IMG/VR virus record: IMGVR_UViG_3300036770_008723
Coordinates: 1-33,307 of that record
DNA from: a virus
DNA length: 33,307 bases
Strand: one strand, 5' to 3'
The stretch's first letter is position 1; every line of letters starts with the position of its first letter. Position numbers and translations under genes: made by a program. The notes beneath the pieces are model-generated. The model did no database searches and was not told the DNA's origin. It was given only the letters and a program-made list of their open reading frames with translations. Below, in pieces: positions 194-33,307 of this stretch.

Positions 194-1087
194 ATGAGCA
201 AGGTGCGTGTTGGCTTGGTCCAGATGGCGCTGAAGGCACCGACCTCGGCGCCGGTCGCAGAGATTCGCGACGCGATGAATGCCGCCCATGCCGAGCAGGT
301 GCGCCAGGCGGCGGAGCAGGGCGTGCAGGTGATCTGCTTCCAGGAGGTGTTCAACGCCCCGTACTTCTGCCCGGTGGCGGAACCGCGCTGGCTGGAAGCC
401 GCGGAGCGCGTGCCGGAAGGTCCAACGACGCAGCTGATGTGCCAGCTCGCCCGCAAGCACAGCATGGTGATCGTGGTGCCGCTCTACCGGCGCCACGATG
501 ATGGCCGCAAGACCAATACAGCCGTGGTGATCGACGCCGACGGCTCGGTCCTGGGCACGTATGAGAAGACCCACATCCCGACCATCGGCGCGCATCTGCA
601 TACGATGATCGGCAACGAGGAGCGCGGCACCGAGCGCTACTGGTTCGAGCCAGGGACCAAGGGGTTCCCGATCTTCCAGACGAGGTACCTGAAGCTGGGT
701 GTCTACATCTGCTACGACCGGCACTTCCCCGAAGGCTGGCGTGCCCTCGGTCTGGCCGGCGCCGAGTATGTCGTGAACCCCTCGGCGACCTGGAAGGGGT
801 TGAGCCAGCACCTCTGGACGCTGGAGCAACCGGCGGCCGCGGTAGCGAACGGGTTCTATGTCGGTGCCATCAACCGCGTCGGTGTCGAGGAACCCTGGGC
901 GATCGGCGAGTTCTACGGGTCGAGCTATGTGGCTGATCCGCGTGGCCGCATTCTGGCCCAGGGACCGGACGATCGCGACGCGCTGGTAGTGGCCGATATC
1001 GACCTCGATGTCGTCCGCGAGGTGAAGGCGACGTGGAAGTTCGACGAGCATCGCCGTCCCGAGACCTACGGCGCCCTCACGCGCTGA
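194..1087 (+). CDS. Nitrilase-superfamily amidohydrolase, beta-ureidopropionase-like
   Basis: A 297-residue protein covering a full carbon-nitrogen hydrolase domain. The catalytic triad is visible as Glu51 (in CFQEVFNAPYF), Lys125 (in YEKTHIP) and Cys173 (in YICYDRHFPE). Together with the VNPSATWKG segment these point to the N-carbamoyl-beta-alanine amidohydrolase branch, which releases beta-alanine, CO2 and ammonia in reductive pyrimidine breakdown; the substrate is inferred. The enzyme is cytosolic, with no signal peptide. The ATG at 194 follows a GGGGAG ribosome binding site. The gene is plus-strand and converges on the phage tail chaperone, overlapping its 3' end by 11 bp. It is either phage cargo or the first host gene beyond a truncated prophage. 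No other pyrimidine catabolic gene is in the window. Confidence 0.9.
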   Translation: MSKVRVGLVQMALKAPTSAPVAEIRDAMNAAHAEQVRQAAEQGVQVICFQEVFNAPYFCPVAEPRWLEAAERVPEGPTTQLMCQLARKHSMVIVVPLYRRHDDGRKTNTAVVIDADGSVLGTYEKTHIPTIGAHLHTMIGNEERGTERYWFEPGTKGFPIFQTRYLKLGVYICYDRHFPEGWRALGLAGAEYVVNPSATWKGLSQHLWTLEQPAAAVANGFYVGAINRVGVEEPWAIGEFYGSSYVADPRGRILAQGPDDRDALVVADIDLDVVREVKATWKFDEHRRPETYGALTR

Positions 1088-25412: not shown

Positions 25413-26252
25413 TCAGGTACGGGGGGAGGGGGTGGTGTTGATCTTGCGGAGCAGCGCGGCGATGTCGGGCGGCTCGGTCTCGTCGAGGCGGCCGGAGCGG
25501 TCCTTGGCGGGCAGGGCGAAGCTGTTGCCGGCACGGCAGACCAGGCGGCGCTCGGTGCCCTTGTCGGGGTCATGGCGCCAGCCCTCGCCCTCGCGGCTGA
25601 ACAGGCCCATCGAGATCACCTGGTCGACGATGCCCGGCAGTTCCCGGCCGGCCTTGCCGCCTTCCATCTGCGGCTGCCAGGAGATGCGGCCGAATTCGTC
25701 GGTCACCTTCTCCAGAATGCCGACCATGATCGTGGTCTTGCCCGGCGCGTGCTGCAGGTGCTTCAGCAGGCCGATCACCTCGCGCGCCATCAATCCGTAG
25801 GCGCCGCGGGTGTCCGGCTTGCCTGTCTTCTCGCTGAACGCCTCCGGCCGGTTCTTGGCCCAGGCCATGGCCTGGCGGGTGAGGTCGGTGATGCTGTCCA
25901 GGAACACGACCGACTTGGCGGCGATCAGCTGCACGAGGTCAGGGTGTTGATGGGCAAGGTGCTGATAGTGGGCCTGGGAGAAGACCGTGCCGTCGGCGGC
26001 CGCCGGGTTCACTCCGCCGACGAGGCAGGCGATGTCGATGGCATCCTCGAAGCAGCGCACCGGGATGCTGTCGCCGCGCCAGTCCTGCACCGACTTGAGC
26101 CCGGCCTCGAGATCGATGCACAGTGTCTCGCGCTCTGGCAGGTGCTTGAGCTGGCTGGTCTTTCCGACGCCGGAGGGGCCGAACAGCGCGATGGTGGTCT
26201 TGTTGGCCGCGGATGACAGTCTCTCGTCGGCGGTGACGATGCGCAGTGCCAT
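25413..26252 (-). CDS. RecA-like ATPase, Sak4-type recombinase
   Basis: A 279-residue single-domain RecA-fold ATPase. Walker A is GPSGVGKTSQ (25-34) and Walker B is VVFLDSITDL (115-124). A later strand, TTIMVGILEKVTDEF, corresponds to the region contacting nucleotide and DNA. Phage Sak4-like proteins promote single-strand annealing with an SSB partner, and the next gene fits as that partner. The ATG at 26252 overlaps the previous stop, so I prefer it over a GTG one codon upstream. A DnaB-loader-like role is less likely given the neighbours. Confidence 0.87.
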   Translation of the reverse strand: MALRIVTADERLSSAANKTTIALFGPSGVGKTSQLKHLPERETLCIDLEAGLKSVQDWRGDSIPVRCFEDAIDIACLVGGVNPAAADGTVFSQAHYQHLAHQHPDLVQLIAAKSVVFLDSITDLTRQAMAWAKNRPEAFSEKTGKPDTRGAYGLMAREVIGLLKHLQHAPGKTTIMVGILEKVTDEFGRISWQPQMEGGKAGRELPGIVDQVISMGLFSREGEGWRHDPDKGTERRLVCRAGNSFALPAKDRSGRLDETEPPDIAALLRKINTTPSPRT

Positions 26253-26749
26253 CACACGCCCCCTTCCGCGCCGGCCAGCGTCAGCTTGAAGGTGGCCTTG
26301 CCGGTGCGGACGGTGCGTGCCGCGGTGAACGCCGTGCGGATGTGCTCGGGCCAGGCAGTGTAGGCGCGCTCGGGGACCTTGTAGGTGACCTCGACATACT
26401 CGGCCGGGTCATCGCCGGCGGCGCGGATGCGCTCGACCACCGCGGCGAGCCGATCCTGGTCCCATTCCACGCGCTTCGGCAGGTCGGCCACGATGGTGAC
26501 ATCGCCATCGGTGAAGCGGACGGAGCCGGTGTCCTTGCGCTGTTCGGCGCGCAGGGCCACGGCACGCTGCCCGTAGCGGGCGGCAATGACGCTCTCGATC
26601 CAGTCGCGGTTGCGCTTGGCGTCGTCCAGCGCCGTGGCGGCGTCCTCCTGCAGCAGGGCGAGGTGCTCGGCTGGCAGCGCGAGAACCTCGTCGACGGGCA
26701 GGCGCAGCATGTCGTCCAGGTGCGGACGGTTCGGGCGGGCGTGGTTCAT
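26252..26749 (-). CDS. Hypothetical protein upstream of the Sak4-like ATPase
   Basis: A 165-residue protein. The N-terminal half is helical (LRLPVDEVLALPAEHLALLQ, then NRDWIESVIAARYGQRAVAL). The C-terminal half is alpha/beta with VRFTDGDVTIVADLPKRVEW and an AYTAWPEHIRTAF segment. It overlaps both neighbours (TGATG and ATGA), so it is translationally coupled with them. Its family resembles proteins found beside Sak4 genes in alphaproteobacterial prophages, but I cannot name it. A recombination or nuclease-inhibitor role would be speculation. Confidence 0.72.
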   Translation of the reverse strand: MNHARPNRPHLDDMLRLPVDEVLALPAEHLALLQEDAATALDDAKRNRDWIESVIAARYGQRAVALRAEQRKDTGSVRFTDGDVTIVADLPKRVEWDQDRLAAVVERIRAAGDDPAEYVEVTYKVPERAYTAWPEHIRTAFTAARTVRTGKATFKLTLAGAEGGV

Positions 26750-27144
26750 CACGCGACCTCCAGGGTGCGGTGGGTGATGGCGGGGGTAGGTGCGCTGGCG
26801 GTGCCGAAAACGGCACTGGCGAACCGGGCCCGAACGGGCCGCGGGCGGGGGCGAACGACCAGCAGGTAGGAGTAGTCGGCCTCGCCATGGCGGCGCTGGA
26901 CGAGGTGTGCCTTGCCCTGTTCGGCCAGACGGAAGGCACGAGCGGCGACGCGCCCCAGCTGCCGGCGATCATCCGCCTCCAGCTTGGAGGCGATGGCGCT
27001 GGCGTCGACGGCGAGAAAGCCGCGCCAGTACTCGATGCGGTCGCCGGACGCGGCGGTGCCGAGCCAGGCCATGAGTGCCGCCTCGTCGAGCATCGGCACG
27101 GTGGGGCGGTGGACGGGGGCGGGGATGAGTTTCTGCATGACCAC
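26749..27144 (-). CDS. Hypothetical protein in the early operon
   Basis: A 131-residue protein. The N-terminal region contains MLDEAALMAWLGTAASGDRI then EYWRGFLAVDAS. A helical segment with RRQLGRVAARAFRLAEQGKAH is followed by LVQRRHGEADYSYLLVVR, a strand pair, and a basic, Pro/Arg-rich stretch. This is the layout of a small winged-helix DNA-binding domain, but that is an inference. Start choice is open: GTG 27144 with GGTGAG upstream, or ATG 27138. It is the second gene after the sigma-like factor and overlaps the next. Confidence 0.72.
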   Translation of the reverse strand: MVMQKLIPAPVHRPTVPMLDEAALMAWLGTAASGDRIEYWRGFLAVDASAIASKLEADDRRQLGRVAARAFRLAEQGKAHLVQRRHGEADYSYLLVVRPRPRPVRARFASAVFGTASAPTPAITHRTLEVA

Positions 27145-27171
27145 GATTACTCACCGACCTCGAAATCCGTA

Positions 27172-27744
27172 TCAGGCGACCGAGCCCAATCCGGCGGCGA
27201 GCAGGCGCAGGCGCATCTCGCGGATGCGCCGGTAGATGCTCATGCGCGGCATCGCCCCCAGCTCGCCGAGCTCGTGCGGCGTGTGCTCAGTCAGGGCGGC
27301 GCAGAGAGGGTGGTCGATGGGGTCGATATCCTCGCCGGCACGGGCCAGATCGAGGCGCCGCTCCAGCGCGGCGATGTCGTTCATGGGCTGGCCGCACCAG
27401 GCGGCATAGCTGTCGCCCGTGCTGAGGGTGCTGCCCAGCGTCACGCCCTCGGTGCCAGGCAGCACGTCGTCGAGCGAGAGGGGATGGCGGGTGCGGCGCT
27501 CGGCGCGGACGCGGCGGGCGATGCGGGTGCCAGCGTGGCGCATGCACACCGTGGCGAAGGCGGCGAGCTCAGCCTTGGCAGGGTCGTACGCCGGCAGCCG
27601 AGTCAGGAAGTCGGCCAGCAGGTCCTGCTGGATGTCCTCCTGCTCATGGCGCGGCAGGCCGAGGCTGCGGCACAGCCGGCGCGCGTCGCGCTTGGCGACG
27701 TCGTATGCGGCGGAGAGGTCGGGGAGATTGGGGCAGGTAGCCAT
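27172..27744 (-). CDS. Sigma-70-like factor of phage origin
   Basis: A 190-residue protein. The N-terminal half resembles sigma region 2 (LGLPRHEQEDIQQDLLADFL, then YDPAKAELAAFATVCMRHAG...RIARRVRAERR), with the Asp/Gln-rich helix that binds core RNA polymerase. The C-terminal segment PHELGELGAMPRMSIYRRIR looks like a region 4 helix-turn-helix. The long middle (about 85-150) is unlike a compact ECF factor. The gene stands at the head of the early operon and may direct transcription of phage promoters. The ATG at 27744 is chosen for the GGAG before it; 27759 is possible. A non-sigma HTH regulator is the alternative. Confidence 0.72.
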   Translation of the reverse strand: MATCPNLPDLSAAYDVAKRDARRLCRSLGLPRHEQEDIQQDLLADFLTRLPAYDPAKAELAAFATVCMRHAGTRIARRVRAERRTRHPLSLDDVLPGTEGVTLGSTLSTGDSYAAWCGQPMNDIAALERRLDLARAGEDIDPIDHPLCAALTEHTPHELGELGAMPRMSIYRRIREMRLRLLAAGLGSVA

Positions 27745-27855
27745 CGCGGCGGACTCCATCGAGGCGTGATGGAGCGACCATGGCGACCGGCACAGTGCAT
27801 TTGGTGGGTCGAGCGTGGGCTGAGAGTGGGTCAGTAGCTGCTGGTGGCGTTCCGC

Positions 27856-28833
27856 TCAGCCCATAATGGCGATCTCCTCTGGCGCCAGGGCCAGTCGATA
27901 CCGCTCGACGCGCTGGTTTTGGATGAGCAGTCGCACTGCGCTTGCTTCCTCGCCAGCAAGCCCCTGCGCCATCTGATCACGAAGGTCGCGTGCGACATCA
28001 CGGAGTTGGCGGGAGTCCGGCGGTTGAAGGGCCCCGTAGACCGCGGCTTGAACGTCCGCCTGGCTTAGGAATCCGGAGTGCCGGCGTGCAGTCTCGGCCA
28101 ACGCATGCAGCAGCCTGGACGTCTGATCGGTAAGGTGCAGCACTCGACCATCGAGTTCGAACCTCCAACTGGTCCGATCGACAGAAAGACGCGGCGTCAT
28201 CGCTGAACTGGGGATCAGCTTGCTGCGATCCAGCCGGATTGGCATTTGCGGCAGGCTTGGCATGAATGCGTCGTCGGGAGACACGACATCGACCCCTCGC
28301 TCCCCCAGCGCAGCGATCTCGGTTGCCGACGAGACGTGACCAATCAATGTGTACCGTGTCGCCCGATCAACCGCCCGCAACCTGTCGAGGGTGGCCTGAT
28401 GTCTGAGCACGGCTGTCGACATGGCGACGACAAGCGTACGGTCGCCGGTGACGCGGCCGATCAGCCAGAGACCTGGCACCACCATGTCGGGCAGATGGTC
28501 AAGTCCGGCGGCTTTGCTGATCTGCGCCGCAAGTTGCGCCGGCCGCATCTGGTATCTTTCAATCTCGGATCGGAGCAGCGCCGTGTCCTGCCCAGCGTCC
28601 ATTGGGCAGACCGCAAACGGCTGGTTCCCATCCCAGCGGATCAGCCGCTCCTCGGCGCCACAATCGCAGCTGTCGCACGGATCCCAAGCGGTCAGGTAGT
28701 CCTGGCGCTCCAGCACGCCCAGTTCGACAAGCCGGGAGAAGGCGCGCGCATCGGTCGACCCGGGCTCCGGCCCGTGCGTTAGGGCCGGCTCGCCGCCCTC
28801 ACTCAGCCGGAGCAGGCGCGAGGGCAGGTTCAC
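27856..28833 (-). CDS. Unrecognised protein with zinc-ribbon-like cysteines and OmpR-like C-terminus
   Basis: A 325-residue protein. Near the N-terminus it has a cysteine cluster C53-x2-C56-x-C58 and Cys76 (DPCDSCDCGAEERL, FAVCP). A middle alpha/beta region follows (about 110-195; VPGLWLIGRVTGDRTLVVAM, YTLIGHV). The C-terminal about 100 residues resemble an OmpR/PhoB winged helix (LDGRVLHLTDQTSRLLHAL, QADVQAAVYG, ending RVERYRLAL). I cannot assign a family. The GTG start overlaps the 411-residue gene by 35 bp, so the two form one unit. It sits between the sigma-like gene and the integration cassette, a common place for prophage accessory systems. Confidence 0.72.
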   Translation of the reverse strand: MNLPSRLLRLSEGGEPALTHGPEPGSTDARAFSRLVELGVLERQDYLTAWDPCDSCDCGAEERLIRWDGNQPFAVCPMDAGQDTALLRSEIERYQMRPAQLAAQISKAAGLDHLPDMVVPGLWLIGRVTGDRTLVVAMSTAVLRHQATLDRLRAVDRATRYTLIGHVSSATEIAALGERGVDVVSPDDAFMPSLPQMPIRLDRSKLIPSSAMTPRLSVDRTSWRFELDGRVLHLTDQTSRLLHALAETARRHSGFLSQADVQAAVYGALQPPDSRQLRDVARDLRDQMAQGLAGEEASAVRLLIQNQRVERYRLALAPEEIAIMG

Positions 28834-30034
28834 GGGCGCACAGAATGCCGTTGGCCCGAAGCAGGTCCATCACCAGCTTCTCATGACGATGCCTCTGGAA
28901 GCTCACAACCTCCGGCGCCTTGATTTTCACCGCAATGACCGGCGGACGCGGCTTGTCCGATCGCAGCACGACCTTGATGACCAGATGGGCGAGTTGCCAG
29001 CCCCCGACGCCATAGGCGATGTCGGTGCGGCTGGCGTGCAAGGCTGCCAGAGCATCACCAGCAGGATCACGAGCGATCAGCGAGAGCGCCACCTTTTGTC
29101 CGCCGCGGCGGCCTGCAACGAGGCGGTTCACCTGCGCCTCATAGATCAGCACCTTGTCGATCTGCCGTTCATGGGCATGACGGAAGACGAACGAGCCGCC
29201 GCTACCCTCCACCAGTTCCAGTGTGCAAATGCGGCGCGACGTCGCGGCGCTGAAAAGGCCTGGACTGTCGAGGACAATTTCGGCATAGGCCCGGGCCAGC
29301 TTGTCCCTCATGGCCTTGGCGCAGCCCCACACTTTGAGGCGCCCCTCTTCAGCCGAATAGGCCAGCACGGCACTTGCGATCTCGCGATAGCTGCGGATGG
29401 CCTTCTTGCCCTGCTCGATGACCTCGGTGACCGTGAGTTGGGCGCCATGGCGGATCAGGATGTGGTCGTCGCCGCCGTCGCGGTAGGTGATCACCTCGCA
29501 GAATTCCTCCCGCAGGTCCGCCTGGAATATCTCGCGGGCACGCTCCTGAAGGTGGCGCAGGCGGTCGTCGGACAGATCAGCAATGATGCCTTCTTCGGTC
29601 GCGACGAACTCGGCAACGGACGGCGGAGCGATGAAAGCGAGTCCCGCTTCCGCCTCCTCAAAGAGATCCGGGTGGCCGATGAAGGCGCGCAGCGCCAGGC
29701 ACCGTGCGCTGGTCTTGGCTACCTCATCAGGCGAGACAATCGTGATGCCACGGCGCCGCGCCGCCTCCAGCAAGGCGTCCTGCCCCAGCGGGATGCCGAG
29801 CTTGTCGACGCGATGCAGATCGTGGGTCAGAGTTTCGGGAATCTCGCCTTTGGGCGTCCGCAGTAGGTAGTCGGAAACAGCCGCCCGGCCGACGTCAGGC
29901 GCCGTGGCCAGTTGTGCGAGATCGAGCTTCTCATCCGGGATGCCGTATCGGCTGAGGAAAGCGTGAAGGAGACTGGTATCGACGGTCCGGAGGAACCGCG
30001 GGTTGGCGAAGCGCTGGAAATCGTCCTTGGCCAT
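28799..30034 (-). CDS. Unrecognised 411-residue protein, partner of the 27856 gene
   Basis: A 411-residue soluble protein. It starts MAKDDFQRFANPRFLRTVDT. A region around 60-160 includes SDYLLRTPKGEIPETL and ITIVSPDEVAKTSARCLALR. A middle section has RDGGDDHILIRHGAQLTVTE, and the C-terminal part is beta-rich with FVFRHAHERQIDKVLIYEAQ and HLVIKVVLRSDKPRPPVIAV. There are no membrane segments and no nuclease, kinase or ATPase motif I could confirm. Base composition is slightly less GC-rich than the replication genes. GGAAGGAC precedes the ATG at 30034. The upstream region holds a perfect 12-bp palindrome. Function unknown. Confidence 0.8.
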   Translation of the reverse strand: MAKDDFQRFANPRFLRTVDTSLLHAFLSRYGIPDEKLDLAQLATAPDVGRAAVSDYLLRTPKGEIPETLTHDLHRVDKLGIPLGQDALLEAARRRGITIVSPDEVAKTSARCLALRAFIGHPDLFEEAEAGLAFIAPPSVAEFVATEEGIIADLSDDRLRHLQERAREIFQADLREEFCEVITYRDGGDDHILIRHGAQLTVTEVIEQGKKAIRSYREIASAVLAYSAEEGRLKVWGCAKAMRDKLARAYAEIVLDSPGLFSAATSRRICTLELVEGSGGSFVFRHAHERQIDKVLIYEAQVNRLVAGRRGGQKVALSLIARDPAGDALAALHASRTDIAYGVGGWQLAHLVIKVVLRSDKPRPPVIAVKIKAPEVVSFQRHRHEKLVMDLLRANGILCAREPALAPAPAE

Positions 30035-30143
30035 GGGTCCTTCCGCGTATGTTCGTGCTATGTTCTATTCGGTGCCGGCACCCGGAGTCGAATCCTTTCG
30101 GCGTGAAGGTACGGATTCCGCGGTGGGTGAGTAACGGCAAGGC
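30035..30143. promoter_or_regulatory. Divergent control region with a 12-bp palindrome
   Basis: GGTGCCGGCACC (30071-30082) is a perfect palindrome 37 bp upstream of the 411-residue gene start. Beside it GAATCC and GGATTC form a 6-bp inverted repeat with a 17-base spacer. The region separates this gene from the plus-strand integration cassette and probably holds both promoters. No strong -35/-10 pair is visible; GAATAGAACATAG reading leftwards is a weak -10 candidate. Confidence 0.45.
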
Positions 30144-30356
30144 ATGCCCATCGCTGCAACTCCCAACCCCCACCTTCCGCCCCACCTCCGCGAGGTCTGT
30201 GATCTCCTGGCCCGCGGCCTGCTGCGGCTGCGCAGCCGCACCACCGGGGAATGTGCCAGCCCCCCTGCTGAAGGTCGGGAGCGTGGAGACATTCGCCTAC
30301 ACTCCACCGCCCAGCAGCGCCGTCATGCGAACCCCAAGAGAAAGGGAGTCGCATGA
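30144..30356 (+). CDS. Small protein at the head of the recombinase cassette
   Basis: A 70-residue protein. The N-terminus PPHLREVCDLLARGLLRLRSR is a basic amphipathic helix, followed by a polar tail (QQRRHANPKRKGVA). Small ORFs of this type commonly precede DUF2924 and a serine recombinase in alphaproteobacterial islands; their role is unknown. The stop overlaps the DUF2924 start (ATGA). The upstream ribosome binding site is weak (AAGG). Confidence 0.65.
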   Translation: MPIAATPNPHLPPHLREVCDLLARGLLRLRSRTTGECASPPAEGRERGDIRLHSTAQQRRHANPKRKGVA

Positions 30357-30823
30357 CCACGTTGATCACCTTCATCCCCAAGGACACGGTCCTGGCGCGG
30401 CTGTCCGCGCTGCACGCGATGCCCATCGCCCAGCTGAAGCAGCAATGGCGCGAGCTGTTCGGCAAGGAACCGCCGCCCTTCAGCCGGACATACATCCAGA
30501 GCCGCCTGGCCTACCGGATCCAGGAGTTGGCCTACGGCGGTCTCAGGCCCGAGACGGTGGCGAAGCTGGAGGCCATCGGCGAGCAGTTGGACGGCGGCAA
30601 CGCAATCGTCCGCCGCATCCGTCACCAGGATAAGCCGATCGCCGGCACCAGGCTCATCCGCGAGTGGAAGGGCGTACAGCACACGGTGACGGTGCTCGCC
30701 AACGGGTATGAGTGGGAGGGACGGCCGTACCAGTCCCTGTCAGCGGTGGCTCGCGCCATCACCGGCACAAGGTGGAATGGCTTCACCTTCTTTGGCATCA
30801 AGAACCAGCGGGGGTTGGCATGA
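30353..30823 (+). CDS. DUF2924 protein
   Basis: A 156-residue protein with the DUF2924 pattern. It has LKQQWRELFGKEPPPFSRTY, then LAYRIQELAYGGL near residue 60, then the C-terminal GTRLIREWKGVQHTVTVLANGYEWEG and SLSAVARAITGTRWNGFTFFGI. The family is almost always encoded just before a large serine recombinase and is thought to help it, possibly as a DNA-binding or directionality partner; that role is not established. It overlaps both neighbours by 4 bp. Confidence 0.93.
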   Translation: MTTLITFIPKDTVLARLSALHAMPIAQLKQQWRELFGKEPPPFSRTYIQSRLAYRIQELAYGGLRPETVAKLEAIGEQLDGGNAIVRRIRHQDKPIAGTRLIREWKGVQHTVTVLANGYEWEGRPYQSLSAVARAITGTRWNGFTFFGIKNQRGLA

Positions 30824-32178
30824 GCAAGAAATCTCGGCTTCCCACCAGCGAGAAGTCGATCACGGCGGCGGCGGTCCGCAAGACCCGCTGCGCCATCTAC
30901 ACCCGCAAGAGCACCGACGAGGGGCTGGAGAAGGAATTCAACACGCTCGACGCCCAGCGCGACGCCTGCGCCGCGTATATTGCCAGCCAGCGCCAGGAAG
31001 GCTGGATCGAGGTGCCGGACTACTACGATGATGGCGGCTACTCCGGCGGCACCCTGGAGCGCCCGGCGCTGAAGCGCCTACTGGCCGACATCGAGCAAGG
31101 GCGGATCGACGTCATTGTCGTTCATAAGATTGATCGGCTTAGCCGCTCGCTGACGGATTTCGCCAAGCTCGTCGAGACCATGGAGGCGCACAACGTTACG
31201 TTTGTGAGTGTGACTCAGGCGTTTAACACAACGACCTCGATGGGCCGGCTGACGCTGAACATTCTGCTAAGTTTCGCTCAGTTCGAAAGAGAACTGATTG
31301 GCGAGAGAATCAGGGACAAGTTCGCCGCGTCGCGTGCCCGCGGGATGTGGATGGGCGGCAAGGTGCCGCTGGGCTACCGGGTTGAAGCCCGCAAGCTCCT
31401 GGTGGTGGAGAGCGAGGCGAGCCAAGTGCGGGCCATCTTCGAGCGGTTCGTGGGGCTGCGGTCGGCCACAAAGCTGGCTCAGGAACTGCGGCAGCAGGGC
31501 GTCCTGTCGAAGACCGGGATGCCGATCGACAAGGGCTACCTCTATCGGCTCCTGGCCAACCGGACCTACCTTGGCGAGGCAACGCACAAGGGGAAGGTCT
31601 ATCCCGGCGAGCACGATGCCATCGTGCCAAGGGAACTGTGGGACAAGGTGCATGCTGTGCTGCAGGTCAGCCCCAGGGTTCGGGCGAACCAAGCACGGGC
31701 GCAGTCGCCGGCGTTGCTGAAGGGCCTGATCTTCGGGCTGGACGACCGGGCCCTGTCGCCGACGCACACCCAGAAGGGCGGCAAGCAGTATCGCTACTAC
31801 GTGGCTCAGGCGGTGCTGAAGGATCAGGGCACATCGAACCCCGACATTGTGCGCCGCATCGCCGCGGCCGAAATCGAGCAGGTGGTGCTTGCCCAGGTCC
31901 GGGCGCTGGTGCGGCAGCCGGAGGTCATCGTGGGCACTTGGCGTGCGGCCCGCGAGGAGGCCCCCGACGTGACCGAGGCCGAGGTCCGCGAGGCGCTGGA
32001 GCACCTGGAGCCGATGTGGGAGGAGTTGTTCCCGGCCGAGCAGGCGCGGCTGGTACAGTTGCTGGTCGAGCGGGTGACAGTCGGGCCGACCGGCGCGGAC
32101 ATCAAGCTGCGGGTCGAGGGGTTGTCCAGCCTGGTACGGGATCTGCGGGGTAGCACCGCGACGCGGGAGGCGGCGTGA
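30820..32178 (+). CDS. Large serine recombinase (phage integrase)
   Basis: A 452-residue recombinase. The N-terminal resolvase domain has the nucleophile Ser31 in IYTRKSTDEG, DAQRDACAAYI, and the HKIDRLSRS motif (about 105) with active-site arginines. The LSFAQFERELIGERI helix leads into the recombinase domain (to about 260, LANRTYLG). The C-terminal half (260-452) recognises att DNA but lacks a clear cysteine zinc ribbon, ending in a helical region. It joins phage and host att sites without host factors. The ATG at 30820 overlaps the DUF2924 stop. Confidence 0.95.
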   Translation: MSKKSRLPTSEKSITAAAVRKTRCAIYTRKSTDEGLEKEFNTLDAQRDACAAYIASQRQEGWIEVPDYYDDGGYSGGTLERPALKRLLADIEQGRIDVIVVHKIDRLSRSLTDFAKLVETMEAHNVTFVSVTQAFNTTTSMGRLTLNILLSFAQFERELIGERIRDKFAASRARGMWMGGKVPLGYRVEARKLLVVESEASQVRAIFERFVGLRSATKLAQELRQQGVLSKTGMPIDKGYLYRLLANRTYLGEATHKGKVYPGEHDAIVPRELWDKVHAVLQVSPRVRANQARAQSPALLKGLIFGLDDRALSPTHTQKGGKQYRYYVAQAVLKDQGTSNPDIVRRIAAAEIEQVVLAQVRALVRQPEVIVGTWRAAREEAPDVTEAEVREALEHLEPMWEELFPAEQARLVQLLVERVTVGPTGADIKLRVEGLSSLVRDLRGSTATREAA

Positions 32179-32705
32179 TGGCGGACACCGTGACGGTGCG
32201 GGTGCCGCTGGTGATCCGGAAGCGTGGTGGGCGGAAAGTGGTGGTGTCGCCAGATGGGTCCGTGCTGCCCGCCGCACCGCGGCACGTGGCCACCAATGCC
32301 GATCCGGCGCTGCTCAAGGCGCTGGGGCGCGCGTTCCGCTGGAAGCGGTTGCTGGACGATGGGACGTACGCCTCGGTCTCCGATATCGCGCGCGCCGAGA
32401 AGCTGGATCGGACCTACGTCGGCGATGTGCTGCGGCTGACGCTGCTGGCGCCACAGATCGTTGAGGCCATCGTGGAGGGGCGGCAGTCGGCGGAGATGAC
32501 GCTGCCGGTGTTGATGAAGCCGTTCCCGGTCGAGTGGGAGAATATCCTCAGCCCCAAACCCGCTTCACTGGCGTCCAAAGACACTGTTGCTATTGCAGAA
32601 GGGGCGGGAGAAGAAAACCTTGACGATCAAGGCGAAGAATTCCGTGCGATTACAAGCGCACTCAGAACTCGCTCAATACATGCGTCGATATTTCGCTCTA
32701 TCTGA
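32178..32705 (+). CDS. Recombinase-cassette accessory protein with a run-on C-terminus
   Basis: A 175-residue frame. Residues 1-120 match the small protein that usually follows such recombinases: RKRGGRKVVVSPDGSV, DPALLKALGRAFRWKRLLDD, a helix-turn-helix-like SVSDIARAEKLDRTYVGDVL, and LMKPFPVEWEN. Homologues normally stop about there. The remaining about 55 residues (LSPKPASLASKDTVAIAEGA onward) are polar, less GC-rich and partly antisense to the Vsr-like gene. The native stop was probably lost at a junction near 32540. The ATG at 32178 follows GGAGG at 7 bp and overlaps the recombinase stop. Confidence 0.78.
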   Translation: MADTVTVRVPLVIRKRGGRKVVVSPDGSVLPAAPRHVATNADPALLKALGRAFRWKRLLDDGTYASVSDIARAEKLDRTYVGDVLRLTLLAPQIVEAIVEGRQSAEMTLPVLMKPFPVEWENILSPKPASLASKDTVAIAEGAGEENLDDQGEEFRAITSALRTRSIHASIFRSI

Positions 32706-33037
32706 TGCTCCCAGATTCGTATTACCTGCCAGCCACGATGTCGCAGCTTGCGCATGTTACGCGTGTCCCGCCTGCGATTCGCATCAATCTTTGCCTCCCA
32801 GGCAGGCGACAGCTTGTCCCTCCACAATGGGAAACGCCAGCCGTGCCAGAAGTCACCGTCGACCAGTACGACCAACATCGCGTCTCGAAACACGAAGTCG
32901 GGCCGCCCAGGTAGATCGCGTGCGTGGGTTTCGAAGGGGATGCCGACCGCCAGCAGGCGTTCAGCAACTGCAAGTTCCGGCTTGGTGTTGCGCCCCTTGA
33001 TTCGAGCCATGACGGCGCTGCGCTTCTCAGGAGACAT
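32627..33037 (-). CDS. Very-short-patch-repair (Vsr)-like endonuclease
   Basis: A 136-residue nuclease with the Vsr pattern. It opens SPEKRSAVMARIKGRNTKPE, then has LPGRPDFVFRDAMLVVLVDG with the catalytic Asp, DFWHGW (in place of the CFWHxH of E. coli Vsr), and RGWQVIRIWEHQI at the end. Vsr nicks at T:G mismatches arising from deamination of 5-methylcytosine; related proteins accompany cytosine methylases. The ATG at 33037 lacks a good ribosome binding site. A GTG at 33142 with AGAGG would add 35 basic residues, and the frame stays open to the window end. It probably belongs to host DNA or a restriction island beyond the prophage. Confidence 0.82.
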   Translation of the reverse strand: MSPEKRSAVMARIKGRNTKPELAVAERLLAVGIPFETHARDLPGRPDFVFRDAMLVVLVDGDFWHGWRFPLWRDKLSPAWEAKIDANRRRDTRNMRKLRHRGWQVIRIWEHQIERNIDACIERVLSALVIARNSSP

Positions 33038-33307
33038 GATGTCGCCACGGTGGCGGCGAGGCGCGGGGCCCTCAGCCTCGGCCGAGGTTCCCGCCTGGGC
33101 AGATAACTTCGATTGCCGCCTGCTCGCTTTCCTGGTTGGCACACTGCGCCTCTGACGCTCGTCTCGATTTATGCGAATCCGGGTTACGGATCCGTTCTCC
33201 TGTGCATACTCTTGCGCTGCACGGTATGGCCAGCAATCTGCCCGTATCCGCGTCAGGGAGAAGGTATCAGGTGAACGAAGCGGGGCTCGTCGGCATCGAT
33301 CTGCCAC

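Follow-up and report, generated by a model that had tools for sequence, protein, structure and literature searches.

Two overlapping genes of a temperate phage, here called A and B, most probably constitute the lysogeny-control (immunity) module of the prophage group to which this phage belongs. This reading draws on features established computationally, namely the fixed order and pairing of the two genes, the replacement of the pair by other modules in the same slot, the folds of A and of the winged helix (wHTH) of B, direct repeats specific to each wHTH type, the exchange of wHTH and repeats as a cassette and a promoter motif, together with the coevolution of A with the N-terminal half of B (B-N). 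The window, i.e. the whole stretch of 33,307 nucleotides that was analysed, comes from IMG/VR as a virus record and encodes terminase, portal, head and tail proteins. Given these virion genes, and since the closest relatives of its recombinase are found in Acetobacteraceae and other Rhodospirillales, it is an ordinary temperate-phage genome of that host group.

The gene pair and its slot in the phage genome

A and B lie on the minus strand in the order A, B and then a gene for a sigma-like factor. The two overlapping genes of 411 and 325 residues described in a sequence-only reading of the window were found again with a 35-nt overlap of their frames, and they may be taken as real genes because homologues with intact frames occur in many genomes. 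The relevant features, in window coordinates, are the following.

25413 to 27144, minus strand: operon downstream of sigma, with a Sak4-like gene, a phrog_2480 gene and a 131-aa gene
27147 to 27171, minus strand: candidate sigma-factor promoter, TACGGATT-N11-GAGTAA, 9 nt ahead of the 131-aa gene (ATG at 27138)
27172 to 27759, minus strand: sigma-like factor (Sigma70_r2, E 1.1e-5), the first gene after the repeats
27804 to 27831, minus strand: predicted B operator in the gap between B and sigma, direct repeats ACCCAC-N5-GCCCAC-N5-ACCCAC with an 11-bp period
27856 to 28833, minus strand: gene B, 325 aa, with a Cys cluster (C53/C56/C58/C76), an alpha/beta middle part and a C-terminal OmpR-type winged helix
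27859 to 28197, minus strand: exchangeable winged-helix domain of B (residues ~213-325)
28799 to 30034, minus strand: gene A, 411 aa, N-terminal part helical, C-terminal part (~131-405) with an RdgC/CENP-N/CENP-L-type fold
30071 to 30082, no strand: 12-bp palindrome GGTGCCGGCACC, at chance level and not conserved
30110 to 30134, plus strand: candidate promoter again, ahead of the small ORF that leads into the integration cassette
30144 to 30356, plus strand: small ORF, 70 aa, with an ATGA overlap with the DUF2924 start and similar sequence in relatives
30353 to 30823, plus strand: DUF2924 gene, integration cassette
30820 to 32178, plus strand: large serine recombinase
32175 to 32705, plus strand: phrog_14161 protein, integration cassette

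The 70-aa ORF had no Pfam match; an 18-bp palindrome is located inside it, at 30223. One end of the window carries a Vsr-type endonuclease gene (32627-33307, minus strand; PF03852, E 8e-22) and the other an ORF that by eye resembles a carbon-nitrogen hydrolase (194-1087, plus strand), probably host flank.

A control region divergent to both genes, as proposed in the earlier reading, does not exist: A and B are co-directional, and only the region upstream of A, up to the small ORF leading into DUF2924, is divergent. The perfect 12-bp palindrome noted there is present, but 18 such palindromes occur in the window and none was found at that place in ten relatives checked, so it was discarded as an operator. 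The DNA element that does stand out, the repeats between B and sigma, had gone unnoticed in that reading. That the 411-residue protein belongs to no known family was borne out, A having no Pfam, NCBIfam or PADLOC match; the same applies to B apart from its OmpR-type winged helix. Searching protein families, PDB sequences, phage records and plasmids directly with either protein returned nothing useful.

Pattern-based scans with A or B missed all relatives, and the serine recombinase used as bait led to the recovery of 160 loci. Of 161 loci (the bait loci plus the window, some of them near-duplicates between two collections), iterated profiles detected A in 46 and B in 39, and B was never present without A. 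Where the pair is present, the gene order is sak4, phrog_2480 protein, 131-aa gene, sigma, B, A and, divergently, DUF2924, recombinase and phrog_14161 protein. In wider searches, 28/299 genomes of the family, 13/385 of the class and 40/398 of the phylum contained A. At least one of the recombinase, DUF2924, phrog_2480 or Sak4 genes was nearby in 37 of the 40 distant A loci examined, one of the other three being a 3.4-kb contig. Fourteen partners adjacent to A in distant and bait loci, when aligned together, proved to be B homologues (hhalign probability 97.8, E 9.5e-13, 281 columns). Some distant A genes have no clear B partner, and at two loci a different gene of 376-380 aa stands beside A instead (L244:9890-11029, plus strand; L246:4087-5214, minus strand). 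A search for distant A homologues in named phages found none. A and B recur in one phage group across Pseudomonadota, between the sigma-like/replication operon and the DUF2924-recombinase cassette. The near-constant phage neighbours of distant A genes and their B-homologous partners place the pair in the phage core and not in a defence island.

In prophages without A-B, the same slot commonly holds a Peptidase_M78 gene (E 2.9e-5), an XRE HTH gene (HTH_31, E 6.5e-12) and a further ORF, and in phages without the sigma gene it holds an HTH_3 plus Peptidase_S24 repressor. These are the ImmR/ImmA-like and CI-like lysogeny modules also present in other temperate elements. Since such modules occupy the slot when A-B is absent, the pair stands where a lysogeny switch is expected; known lysogeny modules and A-B replace each other at one site. 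Near one A homologue lies a gene for an M78 (ImmA/IrrE-like) peptidase (L064:7923-8681, minus strand), possibly a hybrid of the two kinds of slot module.

These results leave standing the earlier view of an unrecognised unit, and they show that the two genes are kept together and that their slot is exchanged between prophages. They do not support a free-standing defence system: the pair occurs almost only inside the conserved gene order of one phage group. Occurrence as core phage repressor genes had been named in advance as the outcome that would speak against an undescribed system of that kind, and it is largely what was found, the slot being otherwise filled by CI/S24 or ImmR/ImmA-type repressor modules.

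B, its predicted operator and a candidate sigma promoter motif

The 325-residue protein carries both the C-x2-C-x-C plus C cluster (C53-x2-C56-x-C58 plus C76) and the OmpR-like winged helix that had been noticed from the letters. PF00486 (Trans_reg_C) was matched by 25 of 29 members of the B family (best E 1.5e-7), the B of the window alone reaching only E 0.15, and a B profile matched PrrA with E 1.5e-10. The AF2 model of B (pLDDT 87.2) is that of a soluble DNA-binding protein whose C-terminus superimposes on BaeR (Z 13.3, rmsd 1.8, 94 residues), as expected of an OmpR-family winged helix. No receiver domain was found by Pfam in the full-length window protein or in family members. PADLOC matches of B were weak, the best one lying in the wHTH; a CARF link was discarded because the match covers the wHTH only.

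OmpR-type domains classically bind direct repeats of about 11 bp. Tandem direct repeats of 10-11 bp were present in the gap between B and sigma for all seven wHTH types, most with a unit of their own, TCCCAC being common to types 4 and 6. In 14 of 19 representatives, no more than 12 of 1000 shuffled sequences attained the lag-11 score; in the other five (both members of type 7, and L006, L030 and L098 from type 2) the strongest period was 21 bp. In the region upstream of A, used as control, that level was reached in none of the representatives. Having little lag-11 signal and being hardly changed between L040 and L048 despite their different wHTHs, this region was rejected as the operator of B. 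A strict version of the window pattern had no match in 2.39 Mb outside the window other than at the corresponding position of L086, a locus of the same wHTH type. By eye, loci fetched later carry the units expected from their wHTH (L274 type 3, L275 type 2, L289 type-1-like), and the repeats persist more than their flanks between distant members of one type. Repeats of 10-12 bp also come after several very distant partner genes whose C-termini differ, such as that of L229 with 19/20 matches at lag 11. Repeat similarity tracks that of the wHTH (r 0.89; partial r 0.80 given A; 0/5000 permutations) and does not track that of A (partial -0.01). The association may be partly one of linkage, since the repeats adjoin B. 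The agreement between repeat unit and DNA-binding domain strongly suggests that B binds the repeats. An inverted repeat of the CCATCG-N5-CGATGG kind, over the sigma start codon (~27740-27765, minus strand) and present in most loci of wHTH types 1, 2, 3 and 7, might serve in translation control.

Pairwise identities of A and B-N are correlated (r 0.957), and the wHTH departs from them. L048 and L040 share 98% in A, 98% in B-N and 47% in the wHTH; the window shares 33%, 24% and 64%, respectively, with L086, and 60%, 45% and 21% with L006. The wHTH tree rejects three A lineages (p-AU 8.5e-22, 7e-97 and 1.9e-42), and the A and B-N trees reject the type-1 clade of the wHTH (p-AU 1e-7 and 3e-10). 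The exchange was clearly delimited in the alignment of L062 with L040, where identity is 88-100% up to the wHTH, 49-60% over the wHTH and repeats and 85-100% in sigma and beyond: in two prophages otherwise mostly 92-100% identical here, only wHTH and repeats (~420 bp) were exchanged, the unit passing from TCCCAC in L062 to TCCGAC in L040. Such a pattern is the one expected of diverging immunity specificity; in the lysogeny-control reading A-B would confer superinfection immunity. Immunity also leads one to expect that no genome holds two modules alike; some genomes do hold fairly similar pairs, with wHTH identities of 70% (G024), 62% (G066) and 72% (G769). In another genome, G050, two modules (L278 and L279) share 81% in A, 83% in B-N and 36% in the C-terminal part of B, apparently a further exchange of the DNA-binding domain.

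The repeats are found 35-60 bp ahead of the sigma start. Among OmpR/PhoB-type regulators most act as activators, through 11-bp repeats placed upstream of the promoter, and both points speak for a variant of the lysogeny-control reading in which B activates sigma and A holds B inactive in the lysogen. Against it, no clear -10 element could be recognised by eye beside or after the repeats, and the equivalents in the slot are repressors. For these two reasons we lean slightly towards repression of sigma by B; the activator-inhibitor variant as a whole is conceivable, if distinctly less probable.

The 25-nt motif TACGGATT-N11-GAGTAA has two exact copies in the window (expected 0.00), which end 9-10 nt before the ATGs of the 131-aa gene and of the small ORF. 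A search of the 161 loci with TACGGA-N(9-20)-G[CA]GTAA gave 46 matches, all with a spacer of 13 and all at these two places. The TACGGA-type motif is present in 26 of 46 A loci and in none of the others, a variant, AACAGA-N13-CGGTAA, goes with a more distant sigma class, and by eye the same layout can be recognised before the 131-aa gene where A-B is absent. As its sequence class follows the sigma class and its layout is kept without A-B, the motif is a candidate promoter of the phage sigma-like factor, independent of A-B; the sigma-like factor would recognise it and the resulting transcripts would be nearly leaderless. The motif was also considered as a B operator and rejected, its sequence following the sigma class and not the wHTH type and the 6-13-6 layout being found without A-B as well.

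The fold of A and other possible roles of the pair

The AF2 model of A (pLDDT 83.5) matched RdgC (Z 9.9, rmsd 5.9, 224 residues), CENP-N/Chl4 (Z up to 8.6) and CENP-L (Z 8.0), unrelated structures scoring about 6. RexA was absent among the listed structure-match chains, and the link runs through the shared relatives RdgC and CENP-N/L: the structural relatives reported for lambda RexA are RdgC, IML3 and CHL4 (PMC11077077). As modelled, A thus has a fold of the RdgC and CENP-N/L type, the group of RdgC and two kinetochore proteins in which lambda RexA is reported to fall. The likeness to RdgC concerns the C-terminal part; unlike RdgC, A stands in a phage module and has an extra helical N-terminal domain, and sequence similarity is not detectable (no RdgC Pfam match in 36 A members and no PDB-sequence match).

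Lambda RexA, a dimer, binds DNA non-specifically, interacts with CI and shifts the switch towards lysis; it has roles in both the lysogeny switch and exclusion, RexA with RexB excluding T4rII, and many phages are excluded by the Rex-like genes that actinobacteriophages carry (PMC11077077). By its fold group and its position beside the integration cassette, A-B could therefore be mainly a RexA-like exclusion or defence pair expressed from the prophage, its repeats serving only autoregulation or self-immunity. We consider this unlikely: no RexB-like membrane protein lies beside A, whose neighbours are B and the divergent cassette, the A-family members scanned gave no PADLOC match, the pair is found almost only in the lysogeny slot, leading an early operon, and the exchange of a repeat-wHTH cassette is the behaviour of regulators of specificity. 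Exclusion may be a side role of A, its fold group including RexA with both roles.

A replication-origin (iteron) or partition module, with B on the array and A as accessory DNA-binding protein, is very improbable: tandem repeats spaced by one turn beside a wHTH gene, the resemblance of A to the centromere proteins CENP-N/L and a weak, non-significant likeness (E 0.6) between the N-terminus of B and Vibrio RctB would fit, but the wHTH belongs to the OmpR type, an integrated element has no need of partition, and prophages with sak4, phrog_2480 and the 131-aa gene have an M78 or CI slot without A-B, so that replication does not need the pair.

A proposed lysogeny switch and its relation to known systems

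In the lysogeny-control reading, B would be a DNA-binding regulator whose N-terminal half pairs with A and whose winged helix binds the tandem repeats; these follow closely on the gene for B and stand at the start of the sigma/replication operon. Binding of B would keep the sigma-like factor low in the lysogen. Upon release of B, sigma would be made and fire the promoter motif before the replication operon and before the cassette of small ORF, DUF2924 and recombinase, leading to excision and lytic replication. The fold of A, which is of a DNA-binding type, its coevolution with B-N and the RexA precedent suggest that A acts on B, and it might modulate B according to the state of the DNA or the cell, as RexA modulates the CI-Cro switch. 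Specificity would evolve by swapping wHTH and repeat array as a cassette of about 420 bp, A and B-N being kept.

The pair resembles lambda cI-rexA-rexB in having a DNA-binding regulator beside a protein that, as modelled, falls into the RdgC/RexA/IML3/CHL4 fold group, in lysogeny-control position in a temperate phage. It differs from it in that A precedes B, RexB is absent, B would act beside a sigma gene and no sequence similarity was found; CI has an S24 domain and palindromes, whereas the A-B regulator is of OmpR type with direct repeats. In sister prophages the slot beside the sigma gene and the integration cassette is taken by ImmR/ImmA-type modules (XRE repressor plus M78 peptidase), but the A-B proteins are unrelated to them, include no metallopeptidase and are encoded co-directionally with sigma rather than divergently. 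B has the C-terminal winged helix and 11-bp direct repeats of OmpR/PhoB-family regulators; in contrast to these, it has a Cys cluster and another N-terminal half, in which Pfam found no receiver domain, and no histidine kinase was seen beside it. In the open-access literature searched, no system was found that combines an OmpR-type regulator, a movable cassette of wHTH and operator and a partner of RdgC/RexA fold.

Lysogeny modules as such are already known, and it is this combination of regulator, cassette and partner that may be new. More tentatively, A-B may represent a widespread and so far undescribed switch of temperate phages, in which an OmpR-type regulator with an exchangeable wHTH-operator cassette works with a partner of RexA/RdgC/CENP-N fold that senses the state of DNA without LexA/CI-style cleavage and also excludes phages. 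The analysis gives a functional assignment, with predicted DNA sites, to two protein families left blank by current annotation. The natural exchange of a domain together with its operator offers a handle on the evolution of immunity specificity and would make immunity types predictable from sequence. The presence of a fold of the RexA/RdgC type in an operon with a regulator, in phages other than lambda and the actinobacteriophages, makes it testable whether RexA-like proteins tune lysogeny in general.
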